Positions 4,902 through 18,827 of a DNA stretch of 24,679 bases are shown here, in pieces. The notes beneath the pieces were generated by a model. It did no database searches, was not told where the DNA came from, and was given only the letters and a program-made list of their open reading frames with translations. The position numbers were made by a program, and so were the translations under genes. How positions within the stretch are numbered: position 1 is the first letter of the stretch; each line of letters begins with the position of its first letter. This stretch comes from a virus, in IMG/VR virus record IMGVR_UViG_3300027832_000103, positions 1 through 24,679 of that record; one strand, given 5' to 3'.

Positions 4902-5186
4902 CTAAGGAATGGTAACTTCCCAGCCGTTTTCAACCTTCACAACATTTCCTGGAAGTTGATAACCGAAGTCAAAGCCCTGCTCTAATTTCAGCATTGCATT
5001 GACTGTCGCAGCATAAGAACACTCGTCAGCGATTTCCTGTGTCGAATAAGTTCTCCATCCAACTTTACAGCCAGACCTTTGACTAACAAAGTCCTGTTCT
5101 GAATAGTTGATTTCTTTCCATTCAGCCATAGGAACGGTTTCGACAAGATTGTCTGCCGCATCTATTTCATGATATTTCATATTCAT
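4902..5186 (-). CDS. Hypothetical protein transcribed from a consensus promoter
   Basis: A 94-residue protein with the start set by a GGGGGTGGG ribosome-binding site 2-3 nt upstream. Residues 46-66 read as a helix (STQEIADECSYAATVNAML), followed by a strand-rich end (GNVVKVENGWEVTIP). No family recognised. It has its own consensus promoter 20 bp upstream, back-to-back with the promoter of the plus-strand small-gene block, so it is probably expressed early or strongly, possibly together with the downstream DpnD-like gene. Confidence 0.65.
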   Translation of the reverse strand: MNMKYHEIDAADNLVETVPMAEWKEINYSEQDFVSQRSGCKVGWRTYSTQEIADECSYAATVNAMLKLEQGFDFGYQLPGNVVKVENGWEVTIP

Positions 5187-5206
5187 TTCCCACCCCCTTC
5201 ATTTGT

Positions 5207-6608: not shown

Positions 6609-6791
6609 ATGGGTGGCAATATGATGTGCAATTTCTGCTGTGAATACCGCGAGTGTTTTGATGTGGTTCACAAAAATGCGAAATTGAAATTTGGCATGTG
6701 CTATCGCTGTGCATACAGTTACAACGGCACAGATGTTTGGCGTGTGTTAAGCGATGAAGGGATGAAAGAAAATGAAAAACAAAATAGCTAA
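6609..6791 (+). CDS. Cysteine-rich zinc-ribbon-like protein, 60 residues
   Basis: I use ATG 6609, 8 nt after AGGAGG, not the GTG at 6600 that overlaps the ribosome-binding site. The protein has CNFCC near the start, a further cysteine, and CYRC near residue 32, a possible treble-clef or ribbon. It overlaps the next gene by 20 bp. Confidence 0.7.
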   Translation: MGGNMMCNFCCEYRECFDVVHKNAKLKFGMCYRCAYSYNGTDVWRVLSDEGMKENEKQNS

Positions 6792-9509: not shown

Positions 9510-10067
9510 TTACCCCTTAGCGGCAATTAGGTTCAGGAACTCTGCCCTTGTTTCTGGCTCGTTGCGGAATGCGCCATTCATAACGCTCGTTCGCATGTTT
9601 CCCGATGTTCTAATGCCTCTCATAATCATGCAGGAATGTTCGCCATCTGCAACAACTGCTATGTCTTTTGAACCTGTAACTCTTTTTACCTCGTCAGCAA
9701 TTTCCTGCACAAGTCTTTCTTGCACCTGTGGCTTGTGAGCATATTTGTGTGCTATTCGTGCAAACTTACTCAACCCAAGAACCTTATCGGTTGGGATGTA
9801 GCCAATAGCGATTGTGGCGTTGAAGGGCAAGAGGTGATGTTCACATAGTGACCAGACCTGCATTCCAGTTACTGCAACCATTTGGTCGTTGTTGTCTAAA
9901 GTAAACGCTGTTTCAATTTTGCCAGCATCGTAGTCAATGAACTCTTTCCACCACTTCGCATACCTTTGTGGCGTATCTTGCAATCCATCACGATTTGGGT
10001 TTTCGCCAATTGCCACAAGAAGGTCTTTGCCTATCTGCACTAGCTTGTCAAAATCTACAGCCATCAT
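9510..10067 (-). CDS. folE: GTP cyclohydrolase I (FolE)
   Basis: Converts GTP to dihydroneopterin triphosphate, the first step to 7-deazaguanines. The 185-residue protein has zinc ligands C75 and H78 in CEHHLLPF (75-82) and C146 in GEHSCMIMRG (142-151), plus the conserved DTPQRYAKWW (31-40). The start is ATG 10067, overlapping the queE stop by 4 bp, with AGAGAGG upstream; a longer in-frame version would sit in queE. A phage folE next to queD, queE and queC is best read as feeding deazaguanine synthesis rather than folate. Confidence 0.95.
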   Translation of the reverse strand: MMAVDFDKLVQIGKDLLVAIGENPNRDGLQDTPQRYAKWWKEFIDYDAGKIETAFTLDNNDQMVAVTGMQVWSLCEHHLLPFNATIAIGYIPTDKVLGLSKFARIAHKYAHKPQVQERLVQEIADEVKRVTGSKDIAVVADGEHSCMIMRGIRTSGNMRTSVMNGAFRNEPETRAEFLNLIAAKG

Positions 10068-10783
10068 CGACCTCTCTCTAAGTTCCAAATTAGCGTGTGA
10101 ATCCTTGGGGATAAATTCCACCCTTTGGAAATTACTGGGTCTGCAAGTAAGCGCATTGATGCAAGTTGGTCGTCTGCTGTCGCGCCAAGTGGCATTACCC
10201 ATACTGCTGCTGCTGGGATGTTGGCAATATCAATCATTGCCTCAATCTCATTGAAGTCGCTTGGGGTTTCTGCAACAAACTTAAACATCGCCTTGCCTTG
10301 CTTTGACAATTCAGCAAAAGCAATAAGCGCATCAGGGTTTACTCTTGCTTGCTCTGTGTCACCTGAGTGTGAAAGCTTGGGAGATACAACGAACATATCT
10401 ACTGCATCAATCGTCTCTAGCTTTGGGATAACCGTTCCGTTGGTTTCGATGTCCAACAAACATCCAGTTACCTCGCGTATTCCTGCAAAGTTGCGCTGTT
10501 GAAGCATAGGTTCTCCGCCGCTAACAATAATACGACTGACACGCATTGGTTCAATTTGTGTTGCAATTTCCTCAAGGGTCATTTTGTGAACCTCGGCATC
10601 GTAATCATACCGCTCCCAATCCCAAGAGTAAGGAGTGTCACACCATGAGCAAGCAAGGTTGCAACCAGCCAGTCTTAGAAAGGCAACGAGCTGACCAGTA
10701 TGAATACCTTCGCCTTGCACAGTCGGACCAAAAATTTCATTGACATTTATATGATTGACTTTGGGCGTAATGTCTAATTTCAT
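10064..10783 (-). CDS. queE: 7-carboxy-7-deazaguanine synthase (QueE)
   Basis: A radical SAM enzyme that turns 6-carboxytetrahydropterin into 7-carboxy-7-deazaguanine. The iron-sulfur cysteines are C41, C45 and C48 in CNLACSWC, the CX3CX2C arrangement. FGPTVQGEG (18-26) and SGGEP (88-92) are the standard QueE motifs. I take ATG 10783, whose ATGA overlaps the queD stop and which has GGA upstream; an ATG 9 bp earlier is equally possible. It overlaps folE by 4 bp, showing a tightly coupled operon. Confidence 0.95.
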   Translation of the reverse strand: MKLDITPKVNHINVNEIFGPTVQGEGIHTGQLVAFLRLAGCNLACSWCDTPYSWDWERYDYDAEVHKMTLEEIATQIEPMRVSRIIVSGGEPMLQQRNFAGIREVTGCLLDIETNGTVIPKLETIDAVDMFVVSPKLSHSGDTEQARVNPDALIAFAELSKQGKAMFKFVAETPSDFNEIEAMIDIANIPAAAVWVMPLGATADDQLASMRLLADPVISKGWNLSPRIHTLIWNLERGR

Positions 10784-11226
10784 AATTTCCATATCGCAGA
10801 ATTAGCGCCGTGTTCGGCACATTCAACTTCTACAACCTTTACCCGCGAGCTTATACCAAGGTCTTGCAATTCTGCACTGGCAAGCTGGGCGGCGAGTTCC
10901 GCGAATTTTTCACAACCAACATGCTCAAGTATGATTACATCCGCCAACCCATCGTCACCTATTTTAGCAAGCAGCTCTAGCCTAGGGTCATCTTTTGCGA
11001 CCACCAGCTTATGGTCAAAGGTTTCTTGTAGTTTTGCTTTCAACCCTTTTAGTCCACCAAAATCCATGACCCAATTGCGGCTATCTAGCTCTGATGCCAT
11101 AAATGTAAATTTAAAGCTGAGGGCGTAGCCATGTAATTTATTACAATGACTATTGGCTCTCCATTGCCGAAACACCGCGCTAAGACCAAGTTCATGCCCG
11201 TAGGTTTTTGTGCTTAGAAATGTCAC
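10780..11226 (-). CDS. queD: 6-carboxytetrahydropterin synthase-like (QueD) with an HGY motif
   Basis: Makes 6-carboxytetrahydropterin from dihydroneopterin triphosphate. The catalytic cysteine C28 precedes LHGYALSF (31-38); FDHK (70-73) and CAEHGAN (136-142) follow the family order. The usual zinc-binding HGH is HGY here, so the third ligand would be Y34. I recall an environmental QueD-like subgroup with this HGY form, so it may be normal for the branch. The start is GTG at 11224-11226, with AGAAGG upstream; its GTGA overlaps the stop of the tiny upstream ORF. 148 residues, somewhat longer than E. coli QueD. Confidence 0.88.
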   Translation of the reverse strand: MTFLSTKTYGHELGLSAVFRQWRANSHCNKLHGYALSFKFTFMASELDSRNWVMDFGGLKGLKAKLQETFDHKLVVAKDDPRLELLAKIGDDGLADVIILEHVGCEKFAELAAQLASAELQDLGISSRVKVVEVECAEHGANSAIWKL

Positions 11227-11318
11227 TTATTTTCCTTCTTGTCTAAGCTGATACACTTGAGGCAAATGTCACCTTTGGTGATTAAGTGTCCCCTCTTGCA
11301 GCTCTTGCTTTTAGCCAA
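11223..11318 (-). CDS. Tiny basic zinc-ribbon ORF between XapX-like gene and queD
   Basis: 31 residues from a TTG start (11316-11318) that overlaps the stop of the XapX-like gene by 8 bp; its own stop overlaps the queD GTG start (GTGA). CKRGH (7-11) and CLKC (19-22) give a compact four-ligand zinc site. The fit to both neighbours by short overlaps supports a real gene, but there is no good ribosome-binding site, and the start is uncertain. Confidence 0.45.
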   Translation of the reverse strand: MAKSKSCKRGHLITKGDICLKCISLDKKENK

Positions 11319-11466
11319 TTATTTTACTTACTATAAAAAATCCCAGCGTGATGCCTATAATTCCTAGCAGTCCAGCCAAAGTTGGCGGTGCAGGAATGGG
11401 CAGCCGAAGAATCGCAAACAGGAATCCAACCACCAAGCCTAGTCCCAAGGCGCTTACTTCATGCAT
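11311..11466 (-). CDS. XapX-domain small membrane protein
   Basis: 51 residues with two hydrophobic segments (about 5-20 and 30-49) joined by RLPIPAPPTLAG (21-32). The pattern LGLVVGFLFAILRLPIPAPP, then AGLLGIIGITLGF, is the XapX signature (DUF1427 family), whose function is unknown. It starts inside queC (8-bp overlap) and its end overlaps the tiny zinc-ribbon ORF, so it is part of the deazaguanine operon. Whether it transports or holds an intermediate, or just rides in the operon, is not visible. Confidence 0.75.
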   Translation of the reverse strand: MHEVSALGLGLVVGFLFAILRLPIPAPPTLAGLLGIIGITLGFFIVSKIIG

Positions 11467-12172
11467 CTTTATGGCTTGCTATCTCACCTAATGCAAAATC
11501 AATACCAAACTCGTAATCAGTCGGGTCGTCTACTCCTGCTTCAATAAAAGCCTCTACTCGCTCGACACAAGTGCCGCATCGACCACAGTGCTTTTCTCCA
11601 CCCTTGTAGCACGACCAAGTAAGGTGATAGGGAACATTTAGCGACTGCCCAATTTGTGCAATTTCAGACTTGAGGATGCCGACAAAAGGCGCTTCGAGAT
11701 GGAAGCCAGCTTTTGAATGACCTTCTGTTCCTAGCTCAAATGCCAAGCTAATCGCATCTATGAACTCGGGTCGGCAATCTGGATAGATAAAATGGTCGCC
11801 CGCGTGAACTCCTGTTGCGACCAAGTCAGAGCCGTTTGCAACAGCAATCCCAGTTGCGATAGACAGCATGATGGCGTTGCGATTAGGCACTACAGTTACT
11901 CGCATCGTTTCTTCTGCGTAATGCCCATCTGGGACATCAATTGCATCTGAGGTCAAAGACGAGTTGGCGATGCTTGACTTGAGTTGGCTAAGGTCAATTA
12001 CTTCCACAGAAGCCTTGAGTTGTTTCGCGACAGCAAAAAGCGACTCAAGCTCTTTGACATGCCTTTGCCCATAATCAAACCCAACAAGATGAAGGTCGTA
12101 TCCTCTGTTGGCATAATAGTATGCAAGAGTAACGCTGTCCATGCCTCCTGAGACAATAAGGGTTGCCTTCAT
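11459..12172 (-). CDS. queC: 7-cyano-7-deazaguanine synthase (QueC)
   Basis: ATP-dependent enzyme that converts 7-carboxy-7-deazaguanine and ammonia to preQ0. The PP-loop SGGMDS lies at 8-13. The zinc site is C188, C196, C199 and C202 (WSC...HCGRCGTC). Length 237 is normal for plain QueC, so it is not the Gat-QueC fusion known from some phages that make dG+. It overlaps the queF-like stop (TAATG) and the start of the XapX-like gene. Confidence 0.95.
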   Translation of the reverse strand: MKATLIVSGGMDSVTLAYYYANRGYDLHLVGFDYGQRHVKELESLFAVAKQLKASVEVIDLSQLKSSIANSSLTSDAIDVPDGHYAEETMRVTVVPNRNAIMLSIATGIAVANGSDLVATGVHAGDHFIYPDCRPEFIDAISLAFELGTEGHSKAGFHLEAPFVGILKSEIAQIGQSLNVPYHLTWSCYKGGEKHCGRCGTCVERVEAFIEAGVDDPTDYEFGIDFALGEIASHKDA

Positions 12173-12579
12173 TAGAATGGCATTTCCATTTGATTCTCCA
12201 TACGAACTGCCCGCGAGGTCATTCTCAGCCCGCCACGAATTTGCTGAGTGGTTGATACCTTTACGGCTTTTGGCGAAATTGATTCAAACAGGTCGTCTGC
12301 AATTCGCGCAGTAATGGCTTCTCCAAACATGCCTTCGTTGCGAAAGCTCATTAAATATAGCTTGAGGGTTTTTGACTCAACGCAATATTCCTTTGGAACA
12401 TAACTAATTTTGATGGTGTAAACATCTGGCTGATTGGTAACTGGACAGAGTGCGGTCAGCTCATGCGATTCAAATTCGACTTCGCTCACATTGGGTGCTG
12501 GGAACTTTTCAAGCTCTGATGCGGAAAGGCTTCCGTCAACTGTGCTGCCTAATACTGTTAGCTTATGGGACTTGCTCAT
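12172..12579 (-). CDS. queF: QueF-like preQ0 nitrile-modifying enzyme
   Basis: Short (type I) QueF-like protein of 135 residues. LCPVTNQPD (44-52) supplies the nucleophilic cysteine C45 that forms the thioimide with preQ0 and the acid D52. ESKTLKLYLMSFRN (68-81) is the NADPH-linked QueF signature, so reduction to preQ1 is the simplest prediction. However, where Bacillus QueF has FHE (its H96-E97) this protein has FGE (85-87): the histidine is glycine. Retained E87 would still hold the base. The ATG is preceded by AACGAGG. It opens the operon after a 79-bp gap containing a palindrome. A QueF-L-like amidation reaction remains possible. Confidence 0.85.
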   Translation of the reverse strand: MSKSHKLTVLGSTVDGSLSASELEKFPAPNVSEVEFESHELTALCPVTNQPDVYTIKISYVPKEYCVESKTLKLYLMSFRNEGMFGEAITARIADDLFESISPKAVKVSTTQQIRGGLRMTSRAVRMENQMEMPF

Positions 12580-12631
12580 GATGCCTCGTTTTCTTTAAAG
12601 GGTTTCGATTACCTTGCCGATGGTTCGGTAC

Positions 12632-12648
12632 TATAAGTATAACTTATA
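12632..12648. promoter_or_regulatory. Palindrome in the promoter region upstream of queF
   Basis: TATAAGT, ATA, ACTTATA is a perfect 7-bp inverted repeat in the only gap between parB-like and queF-like genes (12580-12658). On the minus strand it contains TATACT, a fair -10 box, with CTGTAA 17 bp upstream. It could be an operator over the promoter of the deazaguanine operon. Confidence 0.4.
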
Positions 12649-12658
12649 ATTGCTATGT

Positions 12659-13348
12659 TTACAGTTTTTCGTGTGTGTTCAAGAAGCTCTTTAGCAGAAT
12701 GTCAATCATTTTGCCTGAAGCATCGCGCTCGTTTTTGGGCAACGCAGCGGCATTATCAATTAACGCTTGTGTCCAAAGAATTTCTGTATCGGGAGTAAGG
12801 TCGGCAACAAGGCGATAAGCCATAGAAGCATCTTCGCCTTTATCTTCTTCTATAAGTTCTTCAAGGTTCTCCCAGTCAAATTCAGCCAGCGATAGCAAGT
12901 CAATAAGCTGACCTTCGTTATATGGCAATCCACGAATAAGGTCATCGCCAAAATCCAATTGGATTGAATCAAGCAGTGCGCCCAGTTCGCCCAGCTCTGC
13001 TCGACCCCTTGTTTCATTTAGCACAATGGTTAGCTTTTTTGCCTGCGCGTCCGTAACATCAAGAACGACACATGGGATTTCTTGAGTAATAACAATCTCT
13101 TGAAGCGGCGCAGTTTGCAAGGACTTGTCAGCAAAGATTTTTTGCAAAGCAAGCCAACGATGATAACCGTCAATTATTTGATACTTTGATTTTTGAGTGG
13201 GGTGCTTGCGAACCGTTACTGGCTGAACAAATCCGTTGTCAGTAATTGATTCAATTTCGGCTTCAAAGGCTCTTTCGTTTTGCTTGTTTGGATTCCAGTC
13301 ATTAGGAATTATTTCTGAGTGCTTTATATTTACAAGTTGCAGTTGCAT
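12659..13348 (-). CDS. ParB-like N-terminal domain protein
   Basis: 229 residues. ATG 13348 is chosen because GGGAGG lies upstream and TAATG overlaps the dpdA stop. The N-terminal ParB/Srx-type domain shows IIPNDWNPNKQNE (13-25), NGFVQPVTVRK (38-48) and the nucleotide-binding-like DGYHRW (60-65), followed by LNETRGRAEL near residue 112. The C-terminal 90 residues are acidic and lack the usual ParB helix-turn-helix and dimer regions, so chromosome-like partition is unlikely. Phage proteins of this kind are variably nucleases, CTPases or DNA-modification partners. It sits between dpdA and queF, so a role tied to base modification is the natural inference. Confidence 0.75.
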   Translation of the reverse strand: MQLQLVNIKHSEIIPNDWNPNKQNERAFEAEIESITDNGFVQPVTVRKHPTQKSKYQIIDGYHRWLALQKIFADKSLQTAPLQEIVITQEIPCVVLDVTDAQAKKLTIVLNETRGRAELGELGALLDSIQLDFGDDLIRGLPYNEGQLIDLLSLAEFDWENLEELIEEDKGEDASMAYRLVADLTPDTEILWTQALIDNAAALPKNERDASGKMIDILLKSFLNTHEKL

Positions 13349-14172
13349 TAGTCCTCCCAAACTATTCCTCGTCTTTTCCAAGTGGTGGTGACCAGTTCTT
13401 CCATCTTCTTATAATAGTCAACAGATTGAACCATCATCATTCTCATTGCGCTTTCTTGTCCGCTTCTCACATTGATACCCAAGAAATCTTTTACTTTTAT
13501 TCCATTGCCATTATGGTCAAAAGTCACACCAAACCTTGCGGGATTTGCATAAGTTGATGAGTCAGCGGAGTAAAAAGGGAAAGCAAGCATGAGGTCTTTG
13601 GAAGTAACAGCAAGCCCGTGCATCTTTGGCAGGTTATCTTTGCCAACTGTCTTGACAAGGTGTGTCAAGATGCTTTGTAGCCAAATAAGTTTCTTTTTTT
13701 TAGAAACATCATTGCGAGGAGAAATGCACAAGATGTCACCCTTTGCTAGTCTGCTTACCAGTAAGTCAAGAAATTCAAAAGGCTCGTCTTGATGAAATAC
13801 TTCCTCAATCAAAATGCCCCTACTGCGTAAATAATCTGCGTTTTTGATTGATGCTGTCATGCCCAATTTGCGTTCAGCTTCGGTTGAGGTTCGACCTGCT
13901 TCTCCGGGAATTACATCTAGGTTTACTGCGCGCACTTTGTCCTGCTTGGCTTTCCACTTCAAGCACCATTCCGCATATTTAATAATGTCTACTGACTTTC
14001 CGCTATTCCAAGCCGTAAACGCACCAGAGTCGAGAGCAAGGTCTTTGGGAACATAATCAAGTTTATCCAGCGCGTTGCTATAAGCAAATGAGTTCAAAAT
14101 ATAAGGATACTTTATTTGATTCATTGTGCCGATAGAAGTGGGCGCAGAAGCAAGAGCCATAAAAATTTTCAC
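13348..14172 (-). CDS. dpdA: DpdA-like DNA 7-deazaguanine transglycosylase
   Basis: A 274-residue TGT-fold relative. LALDSGAFTAW (45-55) matches the TGT DSG(G/A)F active-site motif with D48; HQDEPFEFL (127-135) and MHGLAVTSKDLMLAFPF (184-200) follow, then YSADSSTY (201-208) supplies D204, at the place of the TGT nucleophile. No CxCxxC zinc site is present, unlike tRNA-TGT. This order fits phage DpdA, which swaps guanine in DNA for a 7-deazaguanine. The start is GTG 14172 with no clear ribosome-binding site; ATG 14160 is an alternative. First gene of the modification block. Confidence 0.8.
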   Translation of the reverse strand: MKIFMALASAPTSIGTMNQIKYPYILNSFAYSNALDKLDYVPKDLALDSGAFTAWNSGKSVDIIKYAEWCLKWKAKQDKVRAVNLDVIPGEAGRTSTEAERKLGMTASIKNADYLRSRGILIEEVFHQDEPFEFLDLLVSRLAKGDILCISPRNDVSKKKKLIWLQSILTHLVKTVGKDNLPKMHGLAVTSKDLMLAFPFYSADSSTYANPARFGVTFDHNGNGIKVKDFLGINVRSGQESAMRMMMVQSVDYYKKMEELVTTTWKRRGIVWED

Positions 14173-14260: not shown

Positions 14261-14282
14261 AAAAGTGAAGAAAGGATACATA

Positions 14283-16435: not shown

Positions 16436-17171
16436 TTTCCTTCATCCTTTCGCTTTGTTGCTGTAACGCTTTGCCTCGATTCAAAATATCTGCTGCGTTT
16501 GTGCTTGCGTTTGAATTACCAGACGCACTCAAATCATCGTTCCATCGTTCTTGATTCAACCATGTGGTTGGGTGTGGAATAAATTGTAAGTCGGGCAAAT
16601 CTGACTTGCCCGCATATTGTTCGGCAATTTGTAAAATGGTTTCTGGAATCACCTTTGCGGCGGCTTTAGCAAATGCAGTTCGCGCACTTCCTTTGCCAAT
16701 GCGCCGCGGGTAAATAGCCCAAAATTGCTCAAACAAATCGTCATAATTGTTGTTAATATTGTTTTCTTTATATTTAGTATTCTTAATATTAGTATTCTTA
16801 AGCATTAGATTTCCTGATGTTAGGTTTCCTGATGTTAGGTTTCCTGATGTTAGGTTTTCTAATTCAAAGGGGTCAGCCAATAACCACTCGCTTCTTTCAA
16901 CCTGCGCTTTGTCATTTCTCACCAGTGTTCGTGTGAGATAGCCCGATTTTTCAAGTTCTTGAATTGCTGTCCTAACAGCGGTAATCCCATCGGGCGAACC
17001 GTGTGCAAGGTGAGCCAGTGAAATGCTCCAACCGTTGCTGTGACTCATAAGCAAAACAAGTATGCCTTTTGCTCTAAAGCCTATGTTGGTGTCTCTTGCC
17101 CATGAGTTTGGGAACTGAGTAAAATGACCTTCAAATCCAAGCGGTCTGCGTAACAATGAGTTGCGATTCAT
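16425..17171 (-). CDS. Phage replication initiator/replisome organizer
   Basis: 248 residues; ATG 17171 has AAAGGATGG upstream and is preferred over 17198. Residues 15-100 form a winged helix-turn-helix (IGFRAKGILVLLMSHSNGW; GITAVRTAIQELEKSGYL). Residues 106-145 are a low-complexity linker with three LTSGN-type repeats and an asparagine-rich tract. The C-terminal domain has FEQFWAIYPRRIGKGSA and FIPHPTTWLNQERWND, typical of phage initiators that recruit the helicase loader. The linker DNA looks like an origin. This layout parallels lambda O. Confidence 0.8.
   Translation of the reverse strand: MNRNSLLRRPLGFEGHFTQFPNSWARDTNIGFRAKGILVLLMSHSNGWSISLAHLAHGSPDGITAVRTAIQELEKSGYLTRTLVRNDKAQVERSEWLLADPFELENLTSGNLTSGNLTSGNLMLKNTNIKNTKYKENNINNNYDDLFEQFWAIYPRRIGKGSARTAFAKAAAKVIPETILQIAEQYAGKSDLPDLQFIPHPTTWLNQERWNDDLSASGNSNASTNAADILNRGKALQQQSERMKEIGH
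16741..16860. other. Candidate replication origin inside the initiator gene
   Basis: Three perfect tandem 15-bp repeats, TTCCTGATGTTAGGT (16811-16855), adjoin a strongly AT-rich stretch (16741-16800). The latter itself contains TTAGTATTCTTAA twice (16774-16786 and 16789-16801), also at a 15-bp step. Iterons beside an AT-rich region, between the DNA-binding and C-terminal domains of an initiator gene, is the lambda-like origin design. Origin function is inferred. Confidence 0.5.
16811..16855. repeat. Three perfect 15-bp tandem repeats
   Basis: Unit TTCCTGATGTTAGGT, 3 copies, in frame with the initiator gene, where each unit codes a pentapeptide (NLTSG). A degenerate half unit flanks each side. 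Likely DNA-binding iterons rather than a structural protein repeat. Confidence 0.9.
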
Positions 17172-17205
17172 TATCCATCCTTTAGGTAATAATCGCAATT
17201 ATGAT

Positions 17206-17991
17206 TTATTTTAGTTCAAAAAACAAGTTCCATTCTAAAAATCCAATTCGACCTGTAATTCTAAGGTTGTTTGCTTTTTGAAAATCTCTGACCGTTCTTA
17301 TTGTCTCAGTTCCAAAGCGTGAAGTGACTGGACAGTTGTAACCATACACTCGCAGCGCAGATTGTAATATGCGAACTTTTTGCCCAGCATACCCAGCCGC
17401 GATTCTTTCACCGCCTCTTGGAATTATTGAGTTCCAAGTGTACCAATCTACTGTTTTCGTAATTGGTATGCCCATACGATTTTGATAGAAATTCAAAGCC
17501 TCAAGCATTTCATTATCAAAAACTCTTTTGTTTGCTGGGTCAGTTAAGCCAAAAAGATATGCGAGAAAGCCGACATCATCGCCGCCTGTTCCAAGCGATA
17601 TTTGCCTGTATCCAATTTTAGTCGGTACTTTGTCAACAAACCTTTCTTCATGAGTCGGTATGTTGACTTCAATTTTTGTGTCGTAAATGAATACATCGCC
17701 AATTTGTTTAAACCCGATGTCCGCAACATCGATTACAGTATCGAAATTTTCAATCTGTAATTTTAATCCCATTTTTGAACTGGGTGAATCATCCATCAAA
17801 TACGCAGGTAAAATAACAGGCAGGTGATTGGTAGCGAAAATCGCACCGTGATTGATTGCACGAAGCAACAACTCCTCAACCTGACCCACAATGTGCTTGT
17901 GAACAAACACCCTTGCTTGGTCTACTATCACCCTGCGGATGTAATTATTCTTAAAAGATTTGAGTTCGGGATTGCCCCATTTTTCAGCCAT
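17206..17991 (-). CDS. Protein with two C-terminal peptidoglycan-binding repeats
   Basis: 261 residues. Two related peptidoglycan-binding (PG_binding_1-like) units close the protein: about 140-193 (VGFLAYLFGLTD...MLEALNFYQNRMGI) and about 207-260 (VRILQSALRVYGYN...IRTVRDFQKANNLRITGRIGFLEW). The first 130 residues are unrecognised and carry no catalytic motif I can see. No ribosome-binding site precedes the ATG, and TATGCT sits just upstream, so the transcript may be leaderless. It is the first gene of the replication block, an odd place for a cell-wall binder. It might be a virion or entry protein, or a lysis helper. Confidence 0.7.
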   Translation of the reverse strand: MAEKWGNPELKSFKNNYIRRVIVDQARVFVHKHIVGQVEELLLRAINHGAIFATNHLPVILPAYLMDDSPSSKMGLKLQIENFDTVIDVADIGFKQIGDVFIYDTKIEVNIPTHEERFVDKVPTKIGYRQISLGTGGDDVGFLAYLFGLTDPANKRVFDNEMLEALNFYQNRMGIPITKTVDWYTWNSIIPRGGERIAAGYAGQKVRILQSALRVYGYNCPVTSRFGTETIRTVRDFQKANNLRITGRIGFLEWNLFFELK

Positions 17992-18046
17992 AGTAATAGC
18001 ATACTGAATTTTATACTAAATAGAGTTCTTTCTGCGTGTCAAAAGA

Positions 18047-18075
18047 TTGAGTAAGAATAAAAAATGTGCTAAGAT
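18047..18075 (+). promoter_or_regulatory. Promoter of the small RNA
   Basis: TTGAGT (18047-18052), 17 bp, TAAGAT (18070-18075), with TGTGC before the -10 box as in the other phage promoters here. Start expected near 18081, at the foot of the first hairpin. Confidence 0.65.
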
Positions 18076-18080
18076 ATGTT

Positions 18081-18158
18081 GTTGAGCGCCTACCCATCCT
18101 TTCGGCTCTCAACAAAGCCCCTTGGGTTGAGCATACCGCTTGCTCCCCAAGGGGTTTT
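18081..18158 (+). ncRNA. Probable small RNA with an anti-Shine-Dalgarno loop
   Basis: About 78 nt, lying between a promoter and a strong terminator, with no ORF. Hairpin 1: GTTGAG (18081-18086) pairs with CTCAAC (18108-18113), and GCC (18088-18090) with GGC (18104-18106), leaving a 13-nt loop TACCCATCCTTTC (18091-18103). Hairpin 2 is the terminator. The loop is complementary to GAAAGGATGGG-type ribosome-binding sites. It contains 9 contiguous matches (CCATCCTTT) to the initiator leader at 17175-17183, 9 (CATCCTTTC) to 16443-16451 before the loader gene, and 8 to the leader of gene 14283. Base-pairing would hide those ribosome sites. Confidence 0.6.
18118..18158 (+). terminator. Strong Rho-independent terminator
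   Basis: CCCCTTGGG (18118-18126) pairs with CCCAAGGGG (18146-18154), with an inner GAGCA/TGCTC stem, then TTTTATTT. It ends the small RNA and insulates the recombination genes that follow. Confidence 0.85.
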
Positions 18159-18195
18159 ATTTATAAAATGTCAGTGCCTGCTTTTATAATTATGC

Positions 18196-18223: not shown

Positions 18224-18242
18224 GTTATTGAAGGGATGAAAA

Positions 18243-18827
18243 ATGACACTTGAATTAATCATGAAACGCATAGTTGCACACTCAGATGACCGTGATGCTT
18301 GGCTAGAGGCTAGAAACAAAGGAGTAACCGCGAGCAATGCCGCTTCACTCGCCACTCCCAATTCGATTGAGTCAATTCTAAAGTCAAAATTTTATACTGA
18401 CTTTGTTGGCAACGCCGCAACCGAGTGGGGGATTGAACGCGAACCATTGCTTTTAGAATGGGCGGGATTTAGTCAAAATAAATATTTGCTTCACGCGGCA
18501 GACAATAAACGCTTTATGGCAACACCAGACGGAATCAAGGAAACGAAAACTGGTGTCGAGTTGTGTCAAGTCAAAACATCGAGCAAGCCACTTGGCAAAA
18601 TACCAGCAACTTATTGGAGACAGATGCAATGGGAAATGTATGTTGCTGACGCAAACAGAAATCTCTTGGTGTGGGAACACCATGAAAACTTCGTACCTGT
18701 AGACCTACAACCAGTAAGCGTTTGGGTTGACAGAGACGAAGATGCAATAAATCAGATAAAACAATTGGCTACTGCTTTGCTAGGTCAACTAGATGAAGCA
18801 AACGCTTTCGAGAAGGAGATGAAATGA
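18243..18827 (+). CDS. YqaJ-type (lambda exonuclease-like) recombination nuclease
   Basis: 194 residues of PD-(D/E)XK nuclease fold. GVTASNAASL (28-37) is the typical start of the YqaJ domain, NAATEWGIEREPLL carries the first acidic residue, MATPDGI holds the aspartate and ELCQVKTS the ExK. YWRQMQWEMYV is the usual aromatic region. It should resect double-strand ends 5' to 3', giving single strands for the RecT-like protein. ATG 18243 has AAGGGA upstream. Its end overlaps the recT-like start by 4 bp. Confidence 0.88.
   Translation: MTLELIMKRIVAHSDDRDAWLEARNKGVTASNAASLATPNSIESILKSKFYTDFVGNAATEWGIEREPLLLEWAGFSQNKYLLHAADNKRFMATPDGIKETKTGVELCQVKTSSKPLGKIPATYWRQMQWEMYVADANRNLLVWEHHENFVPVDLQPVSVWVDRDEDAINQIKQLATALLGQLDEANAFEKEMK

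Follow-up and report, generated by a model that had tools for sequence, protein, structure and literature searches.

The window analyzed here, an uncultured viral sequence, is the whole stretch of 24,679 nucleotides deposited as positions 1–24,679 of IMG/VR record IMGVR_UViG_3300027832_000103. It encodes a DnaB-type replication module, an exonuclease–RecT–SSB recombination module, and a probable 7-deazaguanine DNA modification cluster (positions 9510–14172: folE, queE, queD, queC, a queF-like gene, ParB-N, and a Tgt/DpdA-like gene). The nearest cultured relatives, as judged by DnaB and the exonuclease, are phages of Microbacteriaceae and Arthrobacter, and the host is probably an actinobacterium. 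A gap of 251 nt separates two divergent genes, one encoding a PG-binding domain (17206–17991, minus strand) and the other a YqaJ/RecE-like exonuclease (start at 18243, plus strand); the plus strand of this gap encodes a predicted two-hairpin RNA (Table 1). The start region of the PG-binding-domain gene (17991–18042) places its ATG just 3′ of TTGACA-TAGTAT and looks like that of a leaderless mRNA, and the orthologous start also lacks a Shine–Dalgarno (SD) sequence in two of the related lineages introduced below (L015 and L041).

The exonuclease–RecT operon has a separate promoter, which sits between the terminator of the RNA and the exonuclease gene and is conserved in place in the relatives that bear the RNA. 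Its form, AATGTCnnnG-N8-TAnnnT, recurs at the same place in L015, L016, and L041 and, by eye, in L018, L021, and L022. A like promoter precedes the exonuclease operon of Microbacterium phage Terij (L064:11290-11313). We take this form to resemble the actinobacterial RecA-NDp (PafBC, DNA-damage) promoter.

A Predicted Small RNA with an Exposed Pyrimidine Loop

The RNA, taken as 18079–18166, folds at −41.8 kcal/mol, compared with a mean of −20.2 kcal/mol for 200 shuffled sequences, none of which is as low (z = −7.8). The first helix pairs 18080–18090 with 18104–18114 around a single C·U mismatch and leaves unpaired a 13-nt loop exactly where the initial annotation had placed it. The terminator hairpin proper extends over 18115–18157, carries the loop UACCGCU, and is followed by UUUUAUUU. 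The annotation had further credited the RNA with a promoter and a terminator of its own. The terminator is borne out by a strong hairpin and a U-tract, and the promoter, read from sequence, is plausible but not proven: the candidate matches 8 of 12 consensus positions, which is under the threshold of the promoter scanner, and has an extended −10 element (TGC-TAAGAT; TGn). In the sister genomes it shows one −35 variant (TTGGGT). Reading the minus strand of the locus as a ribosome-binding site (RBS) was rejected, given that no gene begins after the purine tract there.

Table 1. Features of the RNA locus and RBSs complementary to the loop, in window coordinates
Feature	Position	Strand	Basis or remark
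Predicted small RNA, two hairpins and U-tract	about 18079–18165	+	fold energy, conservation
Hairpin 1, displaying the loop	18080–18114	+	fold
Anti-RBS loop UACCCAUCCUUUC, 13 nt	18091–18103	+	fold, RBS complementarity
Intrinsic terminator hairpin and U-tract	18115–18165	+	fold; lower-stem covariation
Putative sRNA promoter TTGAGT-N17-(TGC)TAAGAT	18047–18075	+	read directly
Separate promoter of the exonuclease–RecT operon	18167–18190	+	ATGTCAGTG-N8-TATAAT
YqaJ/RecE-like exonuclease	18243–18827	+	gene downstream of the RNA, also a predicted target
Initiator RBS AAAGGATGG	17175–17183	−	exact 9-nt complement; start ATG 17171
Loader RBS GAAAGGATG	16443–16451	−	exact 9-nt complement; start TTG 16435
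Gene 14283 RBS GAAAGGAT	14270–14277	+	exact 8-nt complement
Exonuclease RBS GAAGGGATG	18230–18238	+	9 nt with one G–U
Gene 6772 RBS GAAGGGATG	6756–6764	+	9 nt with one G–U
Gene 4902–5186 RBS AGGGGGTGGG	5189–5198	−	10 nt with G–U

Loop Complementarity within the Window

The complementarity claimed earlier between the loop and the RBSs of the initiator, the loader, and gene 14283 is exact at all three. Beyond these, the exonuclease, gene 6772, and gene 4902–5186 also match, the last being a weaker case in that the 16S tail pairs equally well with its RBS. Every other gene in the window reaches at most 7 nt of loop pairing even with G–U pairs allowed, and no portal, terminase, or other structural gene is found among the matched RBSs. 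The proposed set of targets was incomplete: the recombination exonuclease is a predicted target as well, in every lineage compared below.

Complements of 8-mers from the loop occur at seven sites in the window, three of them in RBSs against 0.12 expected (P = 2e-4); shuffled versions of the loop reached three RBS matches in 1.3% of trials, and hairpin 1 has the most RBS matches among 541 hairpins in the window. Above-chance matching within the window is moderately supported. Taken by itself, the window is only suggestive, because some matching to SDs is expected of any anti-SD-like loop, and the comparison with relatives is therefore the real test.

Conservation of the RNA in Related Genomes

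RecT searches yielded contigs that share the gene order of the window. The comparison covers six lineages, all metagenomic: the window; L015; L016 (= L017); L041; L018 (= L020); and L021 with L022 and L023. RecT is 60–77% identical in the five related lineages, and in all five a terminator preceded by a pyrimidine-loop hairpin lies immediately 5′ of the exonuclease gene. The stems vary in sequence between lineages yet fold, and the six loops, each pyrimidine-rich and 9–21 nt long, are different words (UACCCAUCCUUUC, UGUUUCCUUUCCCUUUCCU, UCCUUUCCCUC, GUCCUUUCCUUUCACUGA, AAUUUUCUCUCUCUUUUCU, and UUCCUUCCUUCCAUCCAUCCA), with a CCUUUC-like core shared among the four closest lineages. In a hand-registered alignment of the terminator arms from these four, 6 of the 15 lower-stem pairs are changed on both sides and 98% of cells are paired, and none of 500 shuffles attained the covariation score; automatic counts are weak because MAFFT, applied to whole RNAs, misaligns the stems. 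Among the near-identical genomes L001–L006, the RNA has no changes and its flanks have seven. A real structured and conserved element very probably lies at this locus.

The RNA of L018/L020 and L021/L022 lies immediately 3′ of the upstream stop codon, and it may there be derived from a 3′-UTR. An equivalent RNA was looked for and not found in L019, which keeps the exo–recT operon. Together with L072/L073 (IMGVR_UViG_3300032223_001457), L019 carries the same exo–recT genes with no detectable RNA upstream; these genomes may provide a natural control in which the RNA was lost or never present.

Outside these contigs, a BLASTN search with the locus matched no cultured phage. RecT alignment in bacterial genomes returned no relatives, and DnaB returned distant ones only. 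Of 400 Microbacteriaceae genomes, 341 have an exonuclease homologue; the RNA was not seen upstream at any of the 25 top loci inspected, and these homologues therefore look like chromosomal genes. No comparable RNA was found in the cultured phages phiPsal1, Pickles13, Terij, and MrSmee, whose top hairpin matches are antisense copies of RBSs or weak. A loose scan for a pyrimidine-loop hairpin followed by a terminator was swamped by chance matches.

Co-Divergence of Loops and Ribosome-Binding Sites

The loops differ between lineages, and each tends to fit RBSs of its own phage. In every one of the six lineages, RBSs are enriched for complements of the loop (P from 1e-3 to 3e-11), and shuffled-loop P values are 0.0005–0.02 in five of the six. 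In a blind ranking, every hairpin of a genome (346–755 per genome) was scored by its RBS matches with its position not used; the sRNA hairpin came first in four of the six lineages (the window, L015, L020, and L021), and those of L016 and L041 did not surface.

At the level of single genes, the initiator RBSs of the window (AAAGGATGG), L016 (AGGGAAAGGA), and L020 (AGAAAAGAGA) are exact complements of their own loops over 9, 10, and 10 nt, respectively. Duplex energies, a check that the initial annotation had suggested, favor the loop at all three (−13.5, −16.7, and −13.8 kcal/mol vs −8.2, −10.1, and −8.4 kcal/mol for the 16S tail), and at key targets generally the loop duplex is about 3–13 kcal/mol stronger than the 16S tail duplex. 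The RecT RBS is complementary to the own loop as AAAGAGAGA in L018/L020 and as AAGGAAGGAA in L021/L023, and the exonuclease RBS pairs with the own loop over 7–9 nt in every lineage (9 with G–U in the window). No own-loop match is present at init and dnaB of L041 or at recT of the window, L015, L016, and L041. The DUF932 gene of L021 (L075:1111-2112, minus strand) carries a 12-nt perfect complement, GGATGGAAGGAA, to the loop of its own phage (−22.0 kcal/mol vs −9.1 kcal/mol for the 16S tail).

Smaller differences are seen between the window and its near-identical genomes. The exonuclease RBS is GAAGGGATG in the window vs GAAAGGATG, a perfect 9-nt complement, in L002, L003, L004, and L006, and the RBS of gene 6772 has the same A/G change, reading GAAAGGATG (perfect 9) in L002/L003. 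Both the A and the G forms pair with the loop, via A–U or G–U. The two RBSs, which belong to unrelated genes (exonuclease, window position 18232; gene 6772, 6756–6764), thus carry an identical A/G difference from L002/L003.

Pairing specificity was examined by permuting the loops among the six lineages, giving 720 assignments. Gene starts were chosen by canonical SD only, and the choice therefore favors no own loop. When RBSs with a complement of at least 8 nt were counted, the true assignment was the single best of the 720; on seven orthologous genes it scored 13 against a mean of 4.2, and it was also best genome-wide. Scoring by summed exonuclease and initiator match length again placed it best (86 vs 64.2). 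Other measures put it in the top 1–6, and stricter cut-offs put it at 2–9 of 720. With the swap limited to the four close lineages, the own assignment ranked 2 of 24, and one other does as well. Pairing specificity is thereby supported computationally, and we judge it likely that the loop–RBS pairing is functional.

The loop had been described as a mimic of the anti-SD sequence and as aimed at the replication module. Its targeting of SDs in that module is supported by the conserved position of the RNA and by the co-divergence of loop and RBSs; the loop does not, however, simply reproduce the 16S anti-SD. In L018/L020 the own loop has 6–7 RBS matches of at least 8 nt, whereas the 16S anti-SD and the loops of other lineages have none. 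As far as sequence comparison can tell, the loop is tuned to phage-specific extended SDs.

Proposed Mechanism and Alternatives

The structure, conservation, complementarity, and loop/RBS co-divergence are established by computation; we infer that the RNA is transcribed, that it pairs in the cell, and that it represses rather than activates. Our preferred reading, which we consider moderately probable, is a trans-acting phage riboregulator that represses early-gene translation via a shared extended SD. A stable RNA of about 85 nt would be delivered by its own promoter and terminator or, in L018/L020 and L021/L022, by the 3′ end of the upstream gene instead. Its 5′ hairpin would expose the pyrimidine-rich loop and its 3′ hairpin would act as the terminator. 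The loop would then pair with the extended SD common to a few early genes of the same phage, among them the exonuclease in all cases and, depending on the lineage, the initiator, the helicase loader, DnaB, RecT, the DUF932 gene, and small unknown genes. Covering the SD would keep the 30S subunit off and lower translation of the replication/recombination module, probably in order to limit or switch off early functions. With the SD covered by the loop, and with loop duplexes at key targets stronger than those of the 16S tail, the RNA would most simply compete with the ribosome and repress translation. Since the targets are spread over both strands and several operons, it most likely acts in trans.

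The element might instead be no more than an intrinsic terminator that, together with a protective 5′ hairpin, insulates the exonuclease operon, the loop complementarity being incidental. A strong terminator just 5′ of an operon with its own promoter, together with an sRNA promoter that in the window is weak by consensus, would suit such a role; moreover, pyrimidine loops match SDs by nature, and now and then a random loop of equal composition is complementary to several RBSs. We nevertheless regard this account as unlikely: the loop sequence fits its own phage (first among 720 assignments), no other hairpin matches RBSs better in four of the genomes, and in L018/L020 the 6–7 matches of the own loop stand against zero for the 16S anti-SD. 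Improbable to a greater degree is that the RNA acts mainly on host mRNAs, as a general SD blocker reducing host translation or as a decoy for another host factor. A general blocker would be expected to keep the canonical CCUCC core, which none of the loops does, and the loops drift with the phage RBSs. In favor of a host role, the window loop can still pair over 7 nt with the canonical SD GAAAGGA, and abundant toxic early ncRNAs are known in mycobacteriophages L5, D29, and StarStuff (PMC5712189).

The invariable placement of the RNA directly 5′ of the exonuclease gene, and the complementarity of that gene in every lineage, would fit pairing in cis, in which a read-through leader with its loop 100–140 nt 5′ of the exonuclease SD controls the exonuclease operon only. 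However, a terminator and a separate promoter intervene, and the best matches often fall at init or at genes elsewhere, in a different operon or on the opposite strand. Since a separate conserved promoter lies between terminator and exonuclease, the RNA is not simply the leader of that operon, and we give control in cis little credence. Least of all do we expect pairing at early RBSs to activate or protect the mRNAs, for example by unfolding the leader or by keeping an RNase away. Opening the init and exonuclease leaders of the window at the RBS costs 5–6 kcal/mol, so remodeling is conceivable, but the stretch complementary to the loop includes the SD itself, and pairing there normally prevents the 30S subunit from binding.

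Trans-acting repression may extend to an orthogonal SD/anti-SD system, a tentative proposal that we rate slightly below an even prospect. Here, a phage-specific extended SD would mark the early regulon, a dedicated sRNA would carry the matching loop, and both would co-evolve, giving each lineage a private code for silencing its replication/recombination genes.

Relation to Known RNAs

Rfam searches at permissive thresholds returned chance hits only (none at E ≤ 5 in the window or at E ≤ 1 in seven relatives), and the RNA is therefore not a member of the 6C or c4 families. 6C RNA has two hairpins, C-rich loops of about six C each, and a terminator. The phage RNA resembles it in its two hairpins, C-rich loop, and terminator and differs in having one pyrimidine loop (UACCCAUCCUUUC) and no run of six C; the 6C covariance model matched neither the window nor the seven relatives. 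Anti-SD sRNAs include the CCUCCUCCC/cuckoo RNAs (NfeR1, rhizobia), the streptococcal csRNAs, and the C-rich-loop sRNAs of S. aureus. Such bacterial sRNAs display an exposed pyrimidine loop that pairs with the SDs of many mRNAs (cf. PMC10746234, PMC3927594, PMC4438229). The RNA described here likewise has a predicted exposed pyrimidine loop complementary to the SDs of several mRNAs. Those sRNAs are chromosomal, with a motif near the canonical anti-SD, whereas the RNA of the window is phage-borne and its loop diverges with its own RBSs.

Among phage RNAs, the c4 antisense RNA of P1/P7 has loops that pair at the RBS of an mRNA of its own phage and block translation (PMC12197685), and the RNA of the window is similarly small, with a loop complementary to RBSs of its own phage. 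c4 targets the ant mRNA, whereas the loop studied here fits the extended SD of several early genes. Control of an antirepressor operon was not found, the matched genes of the window being the initiator, loader, and exonuclease, and the c4 covariance model gave no credible match in the window or the seven relatives. Cluster A mycobacteriophages (L5, D29, StarStuff) produce abundant toxic early ncRNAs from a region of about 500 bp transcribed from Pleft; these are also small non-coding RNAs of actinobacteriophages, and the accessible sections of that report describe no anti-RBS loop (PMC5712189). A literature search of partial coverage found no phage RNA that targets several early RBSs with loop/RBS co-divergence.

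Implications

If the proposed regulation is true, one short loop would coordinate the translation of a whole phage module through a modified SD shared among its genes. An sRNA loop that diverges together with several RBSs would amount to a naturally rewritten SD/anti-SD pairing, of use for studying the co-evolution of an sRNA with its regulon and for the design of orthogonal control of translation. Early-gene timing in phages of aquatic actinobacteria, a sparsely studied subject, would moreover gain a layer of post-transcriptional control.
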